From: Schizochytrium sp. TIO01 | Taxonomy: Eukaryota > Sar > Bigyra > Thraustochytrida > Thraustochytriidae | DNA length: 64,000 bases | Assembly (NCBI GenBank): GCA_004764695.1 | Contig: SMSO01000032.1 | Span: forward strand, 5,269,483-5,333,482 | Reading direction: 5' to 3' | Part shown: positions 30,120 through 51,970 of the stretch, piece after piece | Layout: each line of letters begins with the position of its first letter | Numbering within the stretch: position 1 is the first letter of the stretch | Notes under the pieces: generated by a model | The model's input: only the letters and a program-made list of their open reading frames with translations | Told to the model about the DNA's origin: nothing | Database searches by the model: none | Made by a program: the position numbers and the translations under genes

Positions 30120-31061
30120 CTACTTGATCTGCGCTGAGGATGTAGCAGGCGTAAGGAATTTCTCATACAGCGTCCAGGTAATAGCCATATTAAGCGGTCT
30201 TCTCAATAGGCGCGGCCCAAGACCTTGGCCAAAACCAGCCAAGCCTCGAGTTCGCCAAACCGACATTGCTCCCTCGTACAGCGAAAGGTCGTTGTTCAGT
30301 TGCAGCGTAGTCCTGAGCACGTCAAATGGTTGAGAGATAACCGTCGCTACCACTGCAGCCAGTCCCGCCGCTGCTAAGTTTACGAGCGTCTGCGAGACCT
30401 CCACGTCCGCGGCCGCCGCCAAACTTCTGAATCGCGGCTGGAAAACCGACTTATAAAACATCAAATACAGCCCCGTCGAAGGAATATCTCTCACAAGTGT
30501 CGGTACAAGCCCTCGAAACAACCCTGGCACGCCTTCTTCACGCGCAATACGAGCCAGCATATTGCCAACACCAGGCACATGCACGTCTCTTGTGTACTCA
30601 TACCGCGTCTTGACTACTCCCAGTGGGCAAAGCAAGGTTCCGGCTACAGACCGTGCCAGAGCACCCTCAAGGAACACTGTGAGCTTAGGGGCGGCGTAAT
30701 CGTCTCCACGACGACCTTGAACGACGTCAAGGATGGAGAAAAAGACACCAGGGCCGATTGCAGCGCGCATGAGCGTGGGTTTGAGGCCACGCCAGAGGCC
30801 AGCCACGCCGTGGTCAGCGATGATGCCACGAAAGGCCTCACGCGTGGAGACACGGCCAGTGGTGACTGGACCGACAAGGTCAGGACTTCCGGTGGTGACA
30901 ACACCTTGCTGGCGCGTTTTGAGAACATCGAGAGGCTGCAGAAGAATAGCAGCAGCCGACCCGCTCATGGCACCCTTGTAAAAGGCCTCCAAGACGCCGC
31001 CATGCTTAGCCTGTACGCTAGAGGCAGAGGGCGCAGCGGAGGCAGCGGCAGAGGAAGACAT
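30120..31061 (-). CDS. SLC25A38: Mitochondrial glycine carrier, SLC25A38/Hem25 family
   Basis: 313 residues, the usual carrier length, with three repeats and six membrane spans. Carrier signatures: LLQPLDVLKTRQQG in repeat 1, LLCPLGVVKTRYEY in repeat 2 and ISQPFDVLRTTLQL in repeat 3. The second signature lacks the usual acidic residue, as in SLC25A38 (PITVIKTRYE), and the following GLVPTLVRDIPSTGLYLMFY is close to the human protein's TLLRDAPFSGIYLMFY block, which makes the subfamily call specific. SLC25A38/Hem25 imports glycine into mitochondria for 5-aminolevulinate synthesis, the first step of haem formation by the Shemin route. An Ala/Ser-rich N-terminus of about 25 residues precedes the first repeat. 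Single exon. Confidence 0.9.
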   Translation of the reverse strand: MSSSAAASAAPSASSVQAKHGGVLEAFYKGAMSGSAAAILLQPLDVLKTRQQGVVTTGSPDLVGPVTTGRVSTREAFRGIIADHGVAGLWRGLKPTLMRAAIGPGVFFSILDVVQGRRGDDYAAPKLTVFLEGALARSVAGTLLCPLGVVKTRYEYTRDVHVPGVGNMLARIAREEGVPGLFRGLVPTLVRDIPSTGLYLMFYKSVFQPRFRSLAAAADVEVSQTLVNLAAAGLAAVVATVISQPFDVLRTTLQLNNDLSLYEGAMSVWRTRGLAGFGQGLGPRLLRRPLNMAITWTLYEKFLTPATSSAQIK

Positions 31062-40610: not shown

Positions 40611-41753
40611 TTATTTTCGAGGCTGTCGCGCATCAATGTTAGGTTCTTCCATACTACCATATGTGAGAGGGCGAGGTATCTCGCCCGTTCGGAAAGTTTT
40701 GAGCAACTCCCCTGCTCCTCCAGATAAAAGTTCTTTAGCCAAAGCTTCTCCAAGGGCTTCAGGTTGGTTTTGACTGCCGATCATGGCCTTCTCAACAAAT
40801 GAGGACCCATCAATTTGAAGCACAATGCAGGAAAGTTCAAGTTTATCATCCTGCAGAACATTGCTGGACACACCAAGAGGAATTTGACAACCACCCTGTA
40901 AAGCACGAAGTAACGCACGCTCCGCAAGGCATCTTGCTGTTGTCTCTGGGTGCGATAGTGATTTAAGAAGTTTGATCGTACGTTCATCGTTAGCTCGGCA
41001 TTGCAGGCCCAGCGCACCTTGCCCCACGCTATACATGAATTTGGGAGGAGTCAGTACTTCCTCAATACGATTTTCAAAAGAGGGGCCAAGCCGCTTAAGT
41101 CCAGCCACAGCCAAAATGATGGCGTCGAACTCTCCACTATCAAGTTTAGCAAGTCGGGTGCTTAAGTTTCCGCGCACAATATCTACTTTGAGGTGTGGGT
41201 AATCTCTCAAAATAATGGCTTCCCGACGAACAGAGCTTGTACCGATCTTTGCGCCCTTAGGAAGGCCAGCAAGGCCACCTTTGCCGAGATGCTTCTTGTG
41301 AACAACAAGTGCATCGTGCGGTTCTTCTCGCTCTGTAATGGCTGCAAGGATAAGGCCATCGGGCAAGGTCGTGGGCATGTCTTTAAGGCAGTGAACCACA
41401 GCATCGTATTGACCAGACAGAAGCCCTGCCTCAAGCTCCTTTGTAAAGACACCTGGTGTTTTTGCAGCAAGGTCTTTCAAAGATTCTCCCAAGGTTTTAT
41501 CACCGAAGGATTGCACTCCTTTTTGAACTTTCACGTTGAGCCCCGGATGCCGTTCTGTGAGCAGCTTTTGGATGTGCCAGGTTTGCACCATCGCGAGGTC
41601 ACTCTTCCGGGAGCATATCAACAAATCAGAATGATTATTCTCTACAGAGTTTTTATATTCTTTATTTGCCATGCGTCGCATTCGCATCGTGAGTAACGTT
41701 GCCAACGTTGCCAAAGCCCAGCCGAGCTCTGTCGTAAAGGATTGTAATTCCAT
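40611..41753 (-). CDS. HMBS: Hydroxymethylbilane synthase (porphobilinogen deaminase), copy A
   Basis: 380 residues. HMBS polymerises four porphobilinogens into hydroxymethylbilane in haem synthesis. Seen: CSRKSDLAMVQTWH at the start of domain 1 (the usual RIGTR is replaced by LICSR), KLLTERHPGLNV, FTKELEAGLL, the catalytic Asp in HCLKDMPTTLP (D125; most enzymes have HS before LKD), GTSSVRREA, RGNLSTRLAKLD, VGQGALGLQCR, and the dipyrromethane-cofactor Cys in LQGGCQIPLG (C289). Before the enzyme there is a hydrophobic segment (about residues 9-23, LGWALATLATLLTM) followed by RMRR, which looks like a membrane anchor or uncleaved signal; typical HMBS is soluble. It follows copy B on the same strand, 941 bp downstream, and the two are clear tandem duplicates, with A the more divergent. 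Confidence 0.95.
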   Translation of the reverse strand: MELQSFTTELGWALATLATLLTMRMRRMANKEYKNSVENNHSDLLICSRKSDLAMVQTWHIQKLLTERHPGLNVKVQKGVQSFGDKTLGESLKDLAAKTPGVFTKELEAGLLSGQYDAVVHCLKDMPTTLPDGLILAAITEREEPHDALVVHKKHLGKGGLAGLPKGAKIGTSSVRREAIILRDYPHLKVDIVRGNLSTRLAKLDSGEFDAIILAVAGLKRLGPSFENRIEEVLTPPKFMYSVGQGALGLQCRANDERTIKLLKSLSHPETTARCLAERALLRALQGGCQIPLGVSSNVLQDDKLELSCIVLQIDGSSFVEKAMIGSQNQPEALGEALAKELLSGGAGELLKTFRTGEIPRPLTYGSMEEPNIDARQPRK

Positions 41754-42694
41754 GCTTGACAGGGCGTGGCAAACAAAAACTCAGGCTTCCTGAGCCCTAG
41801 TTTAAGAGTCTGTGTCAAACCGCCTCTGTATGAAGTAGCGGTACGAATTGATTTCTGATTTACAACAGCTGTGATCAGGTTTTTTCTTCATCTTCTAGAT
41901 CTTTGCAGCAAAGCGCAAAATGCCTCAGATATGAGAATTGTATCGAGCACGAGTCGCACTGAATAACAAGTGTTTCTTTTTAAATTTAAAAAAAAGAAAA
42001 AAAAAAAGCACACAAAGAACCATGCTAGTGGATCACAACACCAAAAATACATATAATATAAAATGCAATCGAAAACTCGGGCAGATTTAATCTTGAAAGC
42101 TATTAAGTCAAGAAGCTGAATCAATTTAGGTAGGTACAAACTTGATTAAGTCCTTCTTACTAGTGTTATTTAAGTTACTGTTAGGTATTCTAAAGAACGT
42201 TACCTGGAGCAAAATGTTAGTTCTTTGGAATAGTGCGTCACCACGTTTTAGTATTCCATAGGACGTTGGTTCACTATAACACTCCGTTTGACCATGCTTG
42301 CAACTTTTGACGAGATCATGGATATGCTGGGCTCAAGAACTGAAACCGTCAAATAACACCCTTTAAAGTCTTCATATAGGCTATTTGAAGAACAATTTGC
42401 TATTTGCTAGGATAAAGAACACTAAAGACCTAAATCATCGGCAGCGATAAGGGATCAATTTTAGTTATTTGTTTAGTCTTTTCCGTGTATTCATAAATGT
42501 GTGAAAGTTGAAGAAGCACGCAAAGAAGATGAGTGTGAATTGCGTCCAAAACAATCAAATGGGATAGGATTTTTTGATCAACTGGGTACATCATTGCGAA
42601 GCCTTGCATACAGTTATCTTTTTCTCAAACTCCTTACTTTGAGGTCTTTGAAAAGACAACAAATGCTTAGTTGTTGCTGTTCCCAAGGTTCTAT
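41754..42694. other. Spacer between tandem HMBS genes, 0.94 kb
   Basis: Contains an A-rich tract at 41985-42008. No ORF of note; presumably the 3' end of copy B and promoter of copy A. Confidence 0.6.
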
Positions 42695-43864
42695 TTACTG
42701 ACGGCGAGCCTCCACGTGTGGGCTCTCGGCACTGCCGTAGGTGAGAGGGCGAGGTGCCTCGCCAGTCTTAAAGCTCTCCAAAAGCTTTGCAGCACCTCCA
42801 GTGAGTAGGTCCTTCGCGAGTGCCTCTCCAAGTTGTTCCGGTTTCGACTGCTCTCCCACCATACTACGTTCAACAGACTCAGATCCATCCTCCTTAAGGA
42901 TAACACACTTGAGCTCAAGCTTGCCCTCAGGAAGGATTTCGGTGGCAACTCCAAGAGGAACCTGGCAGCCTCCCTGAAGAGTACGCAGGAGAGCACGTTC
43001 AGCAAGGCATCTTGCGGCAGTCTCCGGGTGCTCAATAGACTTGAGCAGTTCAATGGTACGCTTGTCGTCGGCACGGCATTGGAGCCCAAGAGCACCTTGG
43101 CTGACACCGTACATGAACTTTGGCGGGGTAAGAATCTGCTCAATGCGAGCCTCAAATGAGGGTCCAAGACGCTTAAGACCTGCGACAGCAAGCACGATGG
43201 CATCGAAGTCGCCGGCGTCGAGCTTGGCGAGACGAGTGTTCACGTTACCACGGCAAATGCGGACCTCGAGGTGGGGGTAGTCGCGGCGGATGATTGCCTC
43301 GCGACGCACAGAACTTGTTCCAACGATGGCGCCCTCAGGGAGGCACTCAAAGCCACCCTTGCCCCGGTACTTTTCGTGCACGACGAGAGCATCGTGGGGA
43401 TCTTCACGCTCCGTAATTCCGGCAAGAACGAGGCCCTCAGGGAGGGTTGTAGGCATATCTTTGAGAGAGTGGACTACGGCATCGTACTGACCGTCAAGAA
43501 GGCCAGCCTCGAGCTCCTTGGTGAAGAGTCCAGGAGTCTTTGCAGCAAGAGTCTTCAGGGATTCGCCGAGAACCTTGTCACCAAAAGACTGCACACCCTT
43601 CTGGACCTCAACACGAAGGCCAGCGTGCTTTGTCGTCAACAGGTTTTCGACGTGCCAAGTTTGGATCATTGCAAGATCGCTCTTACGAGAGCCAATGCGA
43701 AGCGCCTTGGAAGGAGACGCTGAGTTTGCTGAAGAAGAACCCGAGGCAGATGCTACCTCAGAAGAGGAGGTAGCCTTGATCTTGCCATTCTTTCGTACAC
43801 GGATCGCAACAATCACGGCAAGAACTGTGACGGTCCACAGCGTGGAAACACAGAAATGAGGCAT
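42695..43864 (-). CDS. HMBS: Hydroxymethylbilane synthase (porphobilinogen deaminase), copy B
   Basis: 389 residues from the ATG at 43864. Canonical motifs are intact: ALRIGSRKSDLAMIQTWH, FTKELEAGLL, HSLKDMPTTLP with catalytic D136, GTSSVRREA, RGNVNTRLAKLD, VSQGALGLQCR and LQGGCQVPLG with cofactor-binding C300. This copy therefore looks fully active. The N-terminus is unusual: a hydrophobic segment (residues about 7-21, STLWTVTVLAVIVAI), a basic cluster (RVRKNGK), then about 20 Ser/Ala-rich residues before the enzyme. It could be a membrane anchor; a bipartite targeting signal (signal plus transit-like peptide) is the alternative, although no ASAFAP-type Phe motif of stramenopile plastids is present. 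Divergently transcribed from the RRM/NOL8-like gene. Confidence 0.96.
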   Translation of the reverse strand: MPHFCVSTLWTVTVLAVIVAIRVRKNGKIKATSSSEVASASGSSSANSASPSKALRIGSRKSDLAMIQTWHVENLLTTKHAGLRVEVQKGVQSFGDKVLGESLKTLAAKTPGLFTKELEAGLLDGQYDAVVHSLKDMPTTLPEGLVLAGITEREDPHDALVVHEKYRGKGGFECLPEGAIVGTSSVRREAIIRRDYPHLEVRICRGNVNTRLAKLDAGDFDAIVLAVAGLKRLGPSFEARIEQILTPPKFMYGVSQGALGLQCRADDKRTIELLKSIEHPETAARCLAERALLRTLQGGCQVPLGVATEILPEGKLELKCVILKEDGSESVERSMVGEQSKPEQLGEALAKDLLTGGAAKLLESFKTGEAPRPLTYGSAESPHVEARRQ

Positions 43865-51259: not shown

Positions 51260-51970
51260 TTAAGCAAAAATCATATGTTGCAGACTTAGAGCAGCAAGGG
51301 TGAACATAGCTGCCTGAGTCAAACGGTGCGAAGCTACGACGATCCAATGGTCTGCTCGCTGCTCTAGTTCTGTTTCAGGAAGGAAAAATCCATACGGGCG
51401 GGCATCCACAGATCCGCTATGGTGAAAATGCATATGTGATTGGGCGCACTTGGAGACATATGAAGGGAGCACTCGTTCAAGTGCTTCAGCAAGCTCGCCC
51501 CCTCCCCGACGATGAGCAATCAGGTCATGGCAGACGAAATAAGAAATGCCATATAGTGTGAATCCTATGGCCATTCCGAAGGATATATCCTTCACGAGGG
51601 TTGGTGGGGGCTGAAATGAGGCAGCCATGGTGGGCACAGAGATAAGTGCAAAGAATACCACAAACCAGTCATTAGCTTCGAACCATCCTTTGCGCATGAC
51701 CTTTTGTGTTCCCTTTTCTCCTGGCTCTGACATCAGCGGAGCACTGAGGTTATGGTGGCTGGAGTGGATCCACCAGAGCCATTTTGCGTGCCATAAATCG
51801 CGATGCAAAGTCCGTGCTCCGATTTCCATGTCAATTGTCACAACCAAGGCCACAAGCACGCGCAAGAAACTCCACTCACCATAAAATAGTGCAATAACCA
51901 AACCAGTAATTGTACTGATAAGTCCTCCCAGCGGGAAAAGAACCCTAGCCCGAGCGAGGGAGGATACCAT
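51260..51970 (-). CDS. crtZ: Carotene 3-hydroxylase of the CrtZ/fatty-acid-hydroxylase superfamily
   Basis: 236 residues, membrane-bound di-iron hydroxylase. The His motifs are complete: HRDLWH (H56, H61), HSSHH (H69, H72, H73), HDLIAH (H148, H153) and HMHFHH (H179-H184). Their order and the LHRDLWHAKWLWWIHSSHH block fit bacterial and plant CrtZ-type beta-carotene hydroxylases (H-x4-H, HxxHH, HxxxxH, HxHxxHH), which add 3-OH groups to beta-ionone rings to make zeaxanthin, or astaxanthin when a ketolase is present. Four hydrophobic stretches surround them. The N-terminus runs directly into a membrane span without a plastid transit peptide, suggesting ER or other non-plastid location. Sterol or sphingolipid hydroxylases share the fold, but the compact size favours CrtZ. 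Confidence 0.83.
   Translation of the reverse strand: MVSSLARARVLFPLGGLISTITGLVIALFYGEWSFLRVLVALVVTIDMEIGARTLHRDLWHAKWLWWIHSSHHNLSAPLMSEPGEKGTQKVMRKGWFEANDWFVVFFALISVPTMAASFQPPPTLVKDISFGMAIGFTLYGISYFVCHDLIAHRRGGGELAEALERVLPSYVSKCAQSHMHFHHSGSVDARPYGFFLPETELEQRADHWIVVASHRLTQAAMFTLAALSLQHMIFA

Follow-up and report, generated by a model that had tools for sequence, protein, structure and literature searches.

The window analysed here, a 64,000-nucleotide stretch of the Schizochytrium sp. TIO01 genome, carries two complete hydroxymethylbilane synthase (HMBS) genes on its minus strand, arranged head-to-tail with 941 bp between them. HMBS-A (42695..43864) and HMBS-B (40611..41753) are single-exon open reading frames of 389 and 380 aa, respectively, whose proteins are 69% identical, and a genome-wide search (64.06 Mb, 37 contigs) revealed no further HMBS genes. 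Each copy contains both Pfam domains of HMBS, far over cut-off, and against the hemC profile TIGR00212 (cut-off 164 bits) the two score 306.7 and 301.4 bits. Their closest PDB matches are human HMBS, and comparison of the human type with the plant type gave 256 versus 171 bits. The first-pass annotation had placed tandem HMBS genes at 40611-43864; complete same-strand reading frames over exactly this span, with profile scores above cut-off, bear this out.

The catalytic core occupies residues 55-355 of HMBS-A (42800..43702, minus strand) and residues 44-344 of HMBS-B (40722..41624, minus strand). In an alignment that also includes human HMBS and a pair of bacterial relatives, the motifs VVH[SC]LKDMPT and GGCQ occur in both copies, with the catalytic Lys-Asp (KD of VVHSLKDMPT in HMBS-A) and the dipyrromethane-cofactor Cys (of GGCQ) retained. 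HMBS-B alone has a Ser to Cys change three residues before the catalytic Asp (VVHCLKD), and its activity may differ. The pair shares with human-type cytosolic HMBS (EC 2.5.1.61) a full core that contains both Pfam domains and keeps the catalytic Lys-Asp and the cofactor Cys, but departs from it in an N-terminal hydrophobic and basic extension, in a conserved 25-residue C-terminal tail and in being encoded by two tandem copies. The tail is FKTGEAPRPLTYGSAESPHVEARRQ in HMBS-A (42698..42775, minus strand), with its counterpart in HMBS-B at 40614-40697; its pattern, TGExPRPLTYGSxExP over about 25 residues, is common to both copies and absent from the two aligned bacterial relatives.

The two cores differ by a dN of 0.20 with synonymous sites saturated, from which it follows that the duplication is old and that both cores have been under purifying selection. 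No similarity was detectable between the 5' regions of HMBS-A and HMBS-B, and the dN of the N-termini is high (1.15).

Some other genes may be mentioned. A mitochondrial carrier gene lies some 10 kb from the two HMBS genes (30120-31061, minus strand), a linkage that could be due to chance; its product appears to resemble SLC25A38/Hem25, the glycine importer of heme synthesis, sharing 33% identity with a human sequence over 284 aa. A His-rich reading frame (51260-51970, minus strand; HRDLWH, HSSHH) looks by eye like a carotenoid or fatty-acid hydroxylase, and a PfaA-type PUFA synthase is encoded in the same genome, as suits a thraustochytrid of the Aurantiochytrium/Schizochytrium type.

Ahead of its core, HMBS-A bears a hydrophobic segment, CVSTLWTVTVLAVIVAI (residues 5-21; 43802..43852, minus strand), then a basic flank, RVRKNGKIK (residues 22-30; 43775..43801, minus strand), and a Ser-rich linker to residue 54. 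The corresponding parts of HMBS-B are the segment LGWALATLATLLT (residues 10-22; 41688..41726, minus strand) and the flank RMRRMANKEYK (residues 24-34; 41652..41684, minus strand), which contains Met25 and Met28 and has Met23 just before it. Five basic residues lie C-terminal of the segment in each copy, and neither has a Lys or Arg in front of it (residues 1-21 of HMBS-A; before residue 24 of HMBS-B); the HMBS-B segment is preceded by the acidic residues E2 and E9. The HMBS-A segment is of transmembrane grade, with a best 19-residue Kyte-Doolittle value of 2.08 (residues 5-23) against at most 1.30 in the remainder of the protein and an approximate insertion dG of about -1. An AlphaFold prediction for HMBS-A, a poor model from a 4-row alignment (mean pLDDT 54), shows residues 7-27 as a helix and gives the linker at low confidence. 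The HMBS-B segment is marginal: its 19-residue Kyte-Doolittle value of 1.05 is no higher than that of its own core, it has only 13 uncharged residues, and its approximate insertion dG is about +2.4 over 19 residues and +0.5 over 15. The description of both N-termini as hydrophobic-then-basic is thus right as to layout, and for HMBS-A also as to grade, but with HMBS-B below the usual transmembrane thresholds it is overstated as a claim about membrane segments.

Upstream of Met1, the two HMBS genes have in-frame stop codons at distances of 5 and 9 codons. The second Met of HMBS-A is residue 66, within the core and beyond the conserved RKSD; since a start there would delete core residues, translation must begin at Met1 unless an upstream exon has gone unseen. 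In HMBS-B, Met23, Met25 and Met28 are possible later starts, each giving a protein that lacks the segment.

The N-terminal segments of the two copies are, judging from their residual similarity, homologous. Their local alignment score exceeds that of shuffled sequences (P 0.001) and of shuffles preserving the hydrophobic and basic blocks (P 0.035), and they share the pattern W..LA...RxR[KR]. When neutral drift of the HMBS-A segment was simulated to the divergence of HMBS-B, an equally hydrophobic segment free of charged and polar residues remained in 1.6% of runs (P about 0.016), a result that is no more than indicative, as the simulated drift sets out from one of the present-day copies and not from the ancestor. 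The first-pass annotation had taken the kept layout as an argument for function. Homology and a hydrophobicity that beats drift favour this argument for HMBS-A, whose anchor is probably real and functional; for HMBS-B, with its marginal segment and later Met codons, an anchor is uncertain.

A similar N-terminus occurs elsewhere in the pathway. The genome encodes ALAS, one ALAD, one UROS, one UROD, one CPOX, a PPOX and a ferrochelatase. The single UROD gene, outside the window (G000:C30:3616329-3617375, L004), encodes a human-type core (427 versus 211 bits against the plant type) behind an 80-residue N-terminal extension that begins MSSGHDLSASWTSLAGALCAGAAMGAGVMIAAAR. This extension contains a hydrophobic, Ala/Gly-rich segment with a 19-residue Kyte-Doolittle value of 1.86 and no Lys or Arg before it; its basic flank is weak, a single Arg immediately following the segment, and Met24, Met29, Met38 and Met64 are alternative starts. 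The resemblance of the UROD segment to that of HMBS-A, as read from the two N-termini, is new here. In a small background sample of 59 reading frames, drawn from scattered regions of the same genome and from the window, four carried just one hydrophobic segment at the N-terminus, in each case preceded by Lys or Arg, as in secretory signals, and none of the 59 had the HMBS/UROD layout of a segment without preceding Lys or Arg. The binomial probability that two of the four cytosolic steps would have such a protein is approximately 0.002-0.03 at rates of 1.7-7%, a post hoc comparison on a small sample.

On inspection, ALAD, UROS and PPOX have no leader, and ALAD and UROS have no hydrophobic segment of this kind. 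In CPOX, a hydrophobic stretch comes after a basic presequence, an arrangement resembling that of an intermembrane-space leader, and exon 1 of the ferrochelatase gene looks like a presequence. Leaders of mitochondrial type on CPOX and ferrochelatase, and none on ALAD and UROS, point to a mitochondrial-cytosolic pathway. ALAS (G000:C34:4578029-4579234, L009; outside the window) has in its N-terminus KCPF and LCPHM, which we take to resemble the heme-regulatory CP motifs of animal ALAS.

From these data we infer membrane insertion, topology, choice of membrane and channelling as follows. HMBS-A, and probably more weakly HMBS-B, would be an ordinary human-type HMBS with an uncleaved N-terminal signal anchor, in which, behind a short N-terminus free of basic residues, some 17 residues would form a hydrophobic helix that spans or dips into a membrane. 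The basic flank would keep the following part of the protein cytosolic by the positive-inside rule, given that no basic residue precedes the segment and several follow it, and a flexible linker would lead to the normal catalytic core in the cytosol. The same orientation is suggested by the description of UROS as always co-localized with PBGD and UROD (PMC8233740): as UROS has no signal here, the catalytic domains of its partners should face the cytosol. That the enzyme is membrane-attached, one of two options offered by the first-pass annotation, is fairly likely for HMBS-A, where the transmembrane-grade segment is strengthened indirectly by that of UROD, and weakly supported for HMBS-B. The UROD segment also raises the chance that the middle section of heme synthesis is membrane-tethered.

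The likeliest membrane for HMBS and UROD would be the mitochondrial outer membrane. By a published rule (PMC4010795), signal anchors are sent to the outer membranes of organelles when their Wimley-White value is below 0.4 and at least three basic residues follow the segment; the rule's calibration covered plants, mammals and yeast rather than stramenopiles, and we apply it assuming the octanol scale. UROD (about -0.17, but with its weak flank) and HMBS-B (0.14-0.40, five basic residues) fall on the side that favours an outer membrane, subject to that calibration, while HMBS-A (0.41-0.45, five basic residues) falls on the boundary between ER and organelle. It is on this boundary that the best-surviving alternative rests, namely that HMBS (and UROD) are anchored to the ER or to the lipid-droplet surface with the active site cytosolic, as are cytochrome P450s, whose short uncharged N-terminus, hydrophobic helix and basic flank have the same layout. 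HMBS-A lies just above 0.4, but UROD and HMBS-B lie below it, and a hand-over to CPOX would make more sense at the mitochondrion; we consider an ER or lipid-droplet location unlikely, though the most serious of the competing readings. That the proteins have uncleaved signal anchors and cytosolic catalytic domains, with the mitochondrial outer membrane a likelier site than the ER, seems to us an evenly balanced proposition.

Alternatively, the N-terminal stretch may not be an anchor at all, HMBS-B and UROD being made as soluble enzymes from later starts, or the segment binding membranes weakly or simply being tolerated. Met23, Met25 and Met28 in the marginal HMBS-B, Met24, Met29, Met38 and Met64 in UROD, and the high N-terminal dN (1.15) would all fit, but no later Met of HMBS-A is usable, hydrophobicity has been kept against drift, and the single-copy UROD has the same layout, so that we regard this as a decidedly unlikely account of the data.

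Import of HMBS into the mitochondrion, whether to the matrix or to the intermembrane space, we hold to be improbable. Mitochondrial-type leaders do occur on this genome's CPOX and ferrochelatase, but HMBS-A and UROD have no Lys or Arg before the segment, HMBS-B has acidic residues there, and none has an amphipathic basic presequence. An organelle-targeting signal in the sense of a matrix presequence, the second option of the first-pass annotation, was rejected accordingly on the Lys/Arg-free residues 1-21 of HMBS-A and on E2, E9 and the lack of Lys or Arg before residue 24 in HMBS-B. Furthermore, UROS and ALAD carry no signal, and the unstable product of an imported HMBS would be separated from UROS.

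The plastid sense of the same option, a relic or active bipartite signal composed of a signal peptide and a Ser-rich transit peptide, is very improbable: the hydrophobic segment and Ser-rich linker of HMBS-A resemble such a leader, and HMBS and UROD of diatoms and Chromera carry them (PMC11914136, PMC8233740), but HMBS and UROD here are human-type and not plant-type, UROS and ALAD have no leader, ALAS is present, and the genome search gave no match for glutamyl-tRNA reductase (GlutR_N) or LytB, a missing match falling short of full proof of absence. Oomycetes, also heterotrophic stramenopiles, are reported to have a PBGD that groups with the eukaryotic nuclear type (PMC5115734), which likewise speaks against a plastid signal.

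Known HMBS had been described in the first-pass annotation as soluble. This is correct for the mature enzymes, but hydrophobic leaders were already known from diatoms and Chromera, where they form the signal-peptide half of a bipartite plastid-targeting sequence (PMC11914136, PMC8233740). The Schizochytrium proteins are like these plastid enzymes in having a hydrophobic leader ahead of the core; there, however, the leader sits on an alphaproteobacterial-type enzyme, and here on a human-type one, in a genome where neither a plastid heme gene nor LytB was detected. In their short N-terminus, single moderately hydrophobic segment, basic flank and catalytic domain expected in the cytosol, they resemble Tom20/Tom70, Arabidopsis hexokinases and Cbr1, and P450s, but, unlike in those mitochondrial outer membrane and ER signal-anchored proteins, insertion of HMBS is a prediction from sequence. 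The ALAS-PPOX-FECH mitochondrial heme metabolon offers the idea of spatially grouped heme enzymes, but concerns the inner-membrane and matrix ends of the pathway, not HMBS or UROD.

A scan of GTDB yielded only two bacterial HMBS matches, both without an N-terminal extension, and a scan of IMG/VR yielded none. In the literature searched, we found no paper on thraustochytrid heme enzymes and no HMBS or UROD with such an N-terminal anchor.

Hydroxymethylbilane that is not acted on immediately by UROS cyclizes spontaneously to a useless isomer. Channelling of this product by a membrane-attached HMBS, as the first-pass annotation had suggested, is possible. Were the anchors in the mitochondrial outer membrane, hydroxymethylbilane would be made, and uroporphyrinogen decarboxylated, alongside the mitochondrion, and coproporphyrinogen III would be set free close to CPOX. 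More tentatively, HMBS and UROD, each tethered by its own anchor, with soluble UROS between them, might form a surface metabolon that limits hydroxymethylbilane loss and feeds coproporphyrinogen III to the intermembrane-space CPOX. The route of coproporphyrinogen III from the cytosol into the mitochondrion has been described as unknown (PMC7140478). If true, the tethering of HMBS and UROD would provide a natural case for testing whether the cytosolic half of the pathway is organized at the mitochondrial surface. The C4-type mitochondrial-cytosolic gene set, with no match for glutamyl-tRNA reductase or LytB, is also useful for tracing the evolution of heme synthesis in non-photosynthetic stramenopiles.
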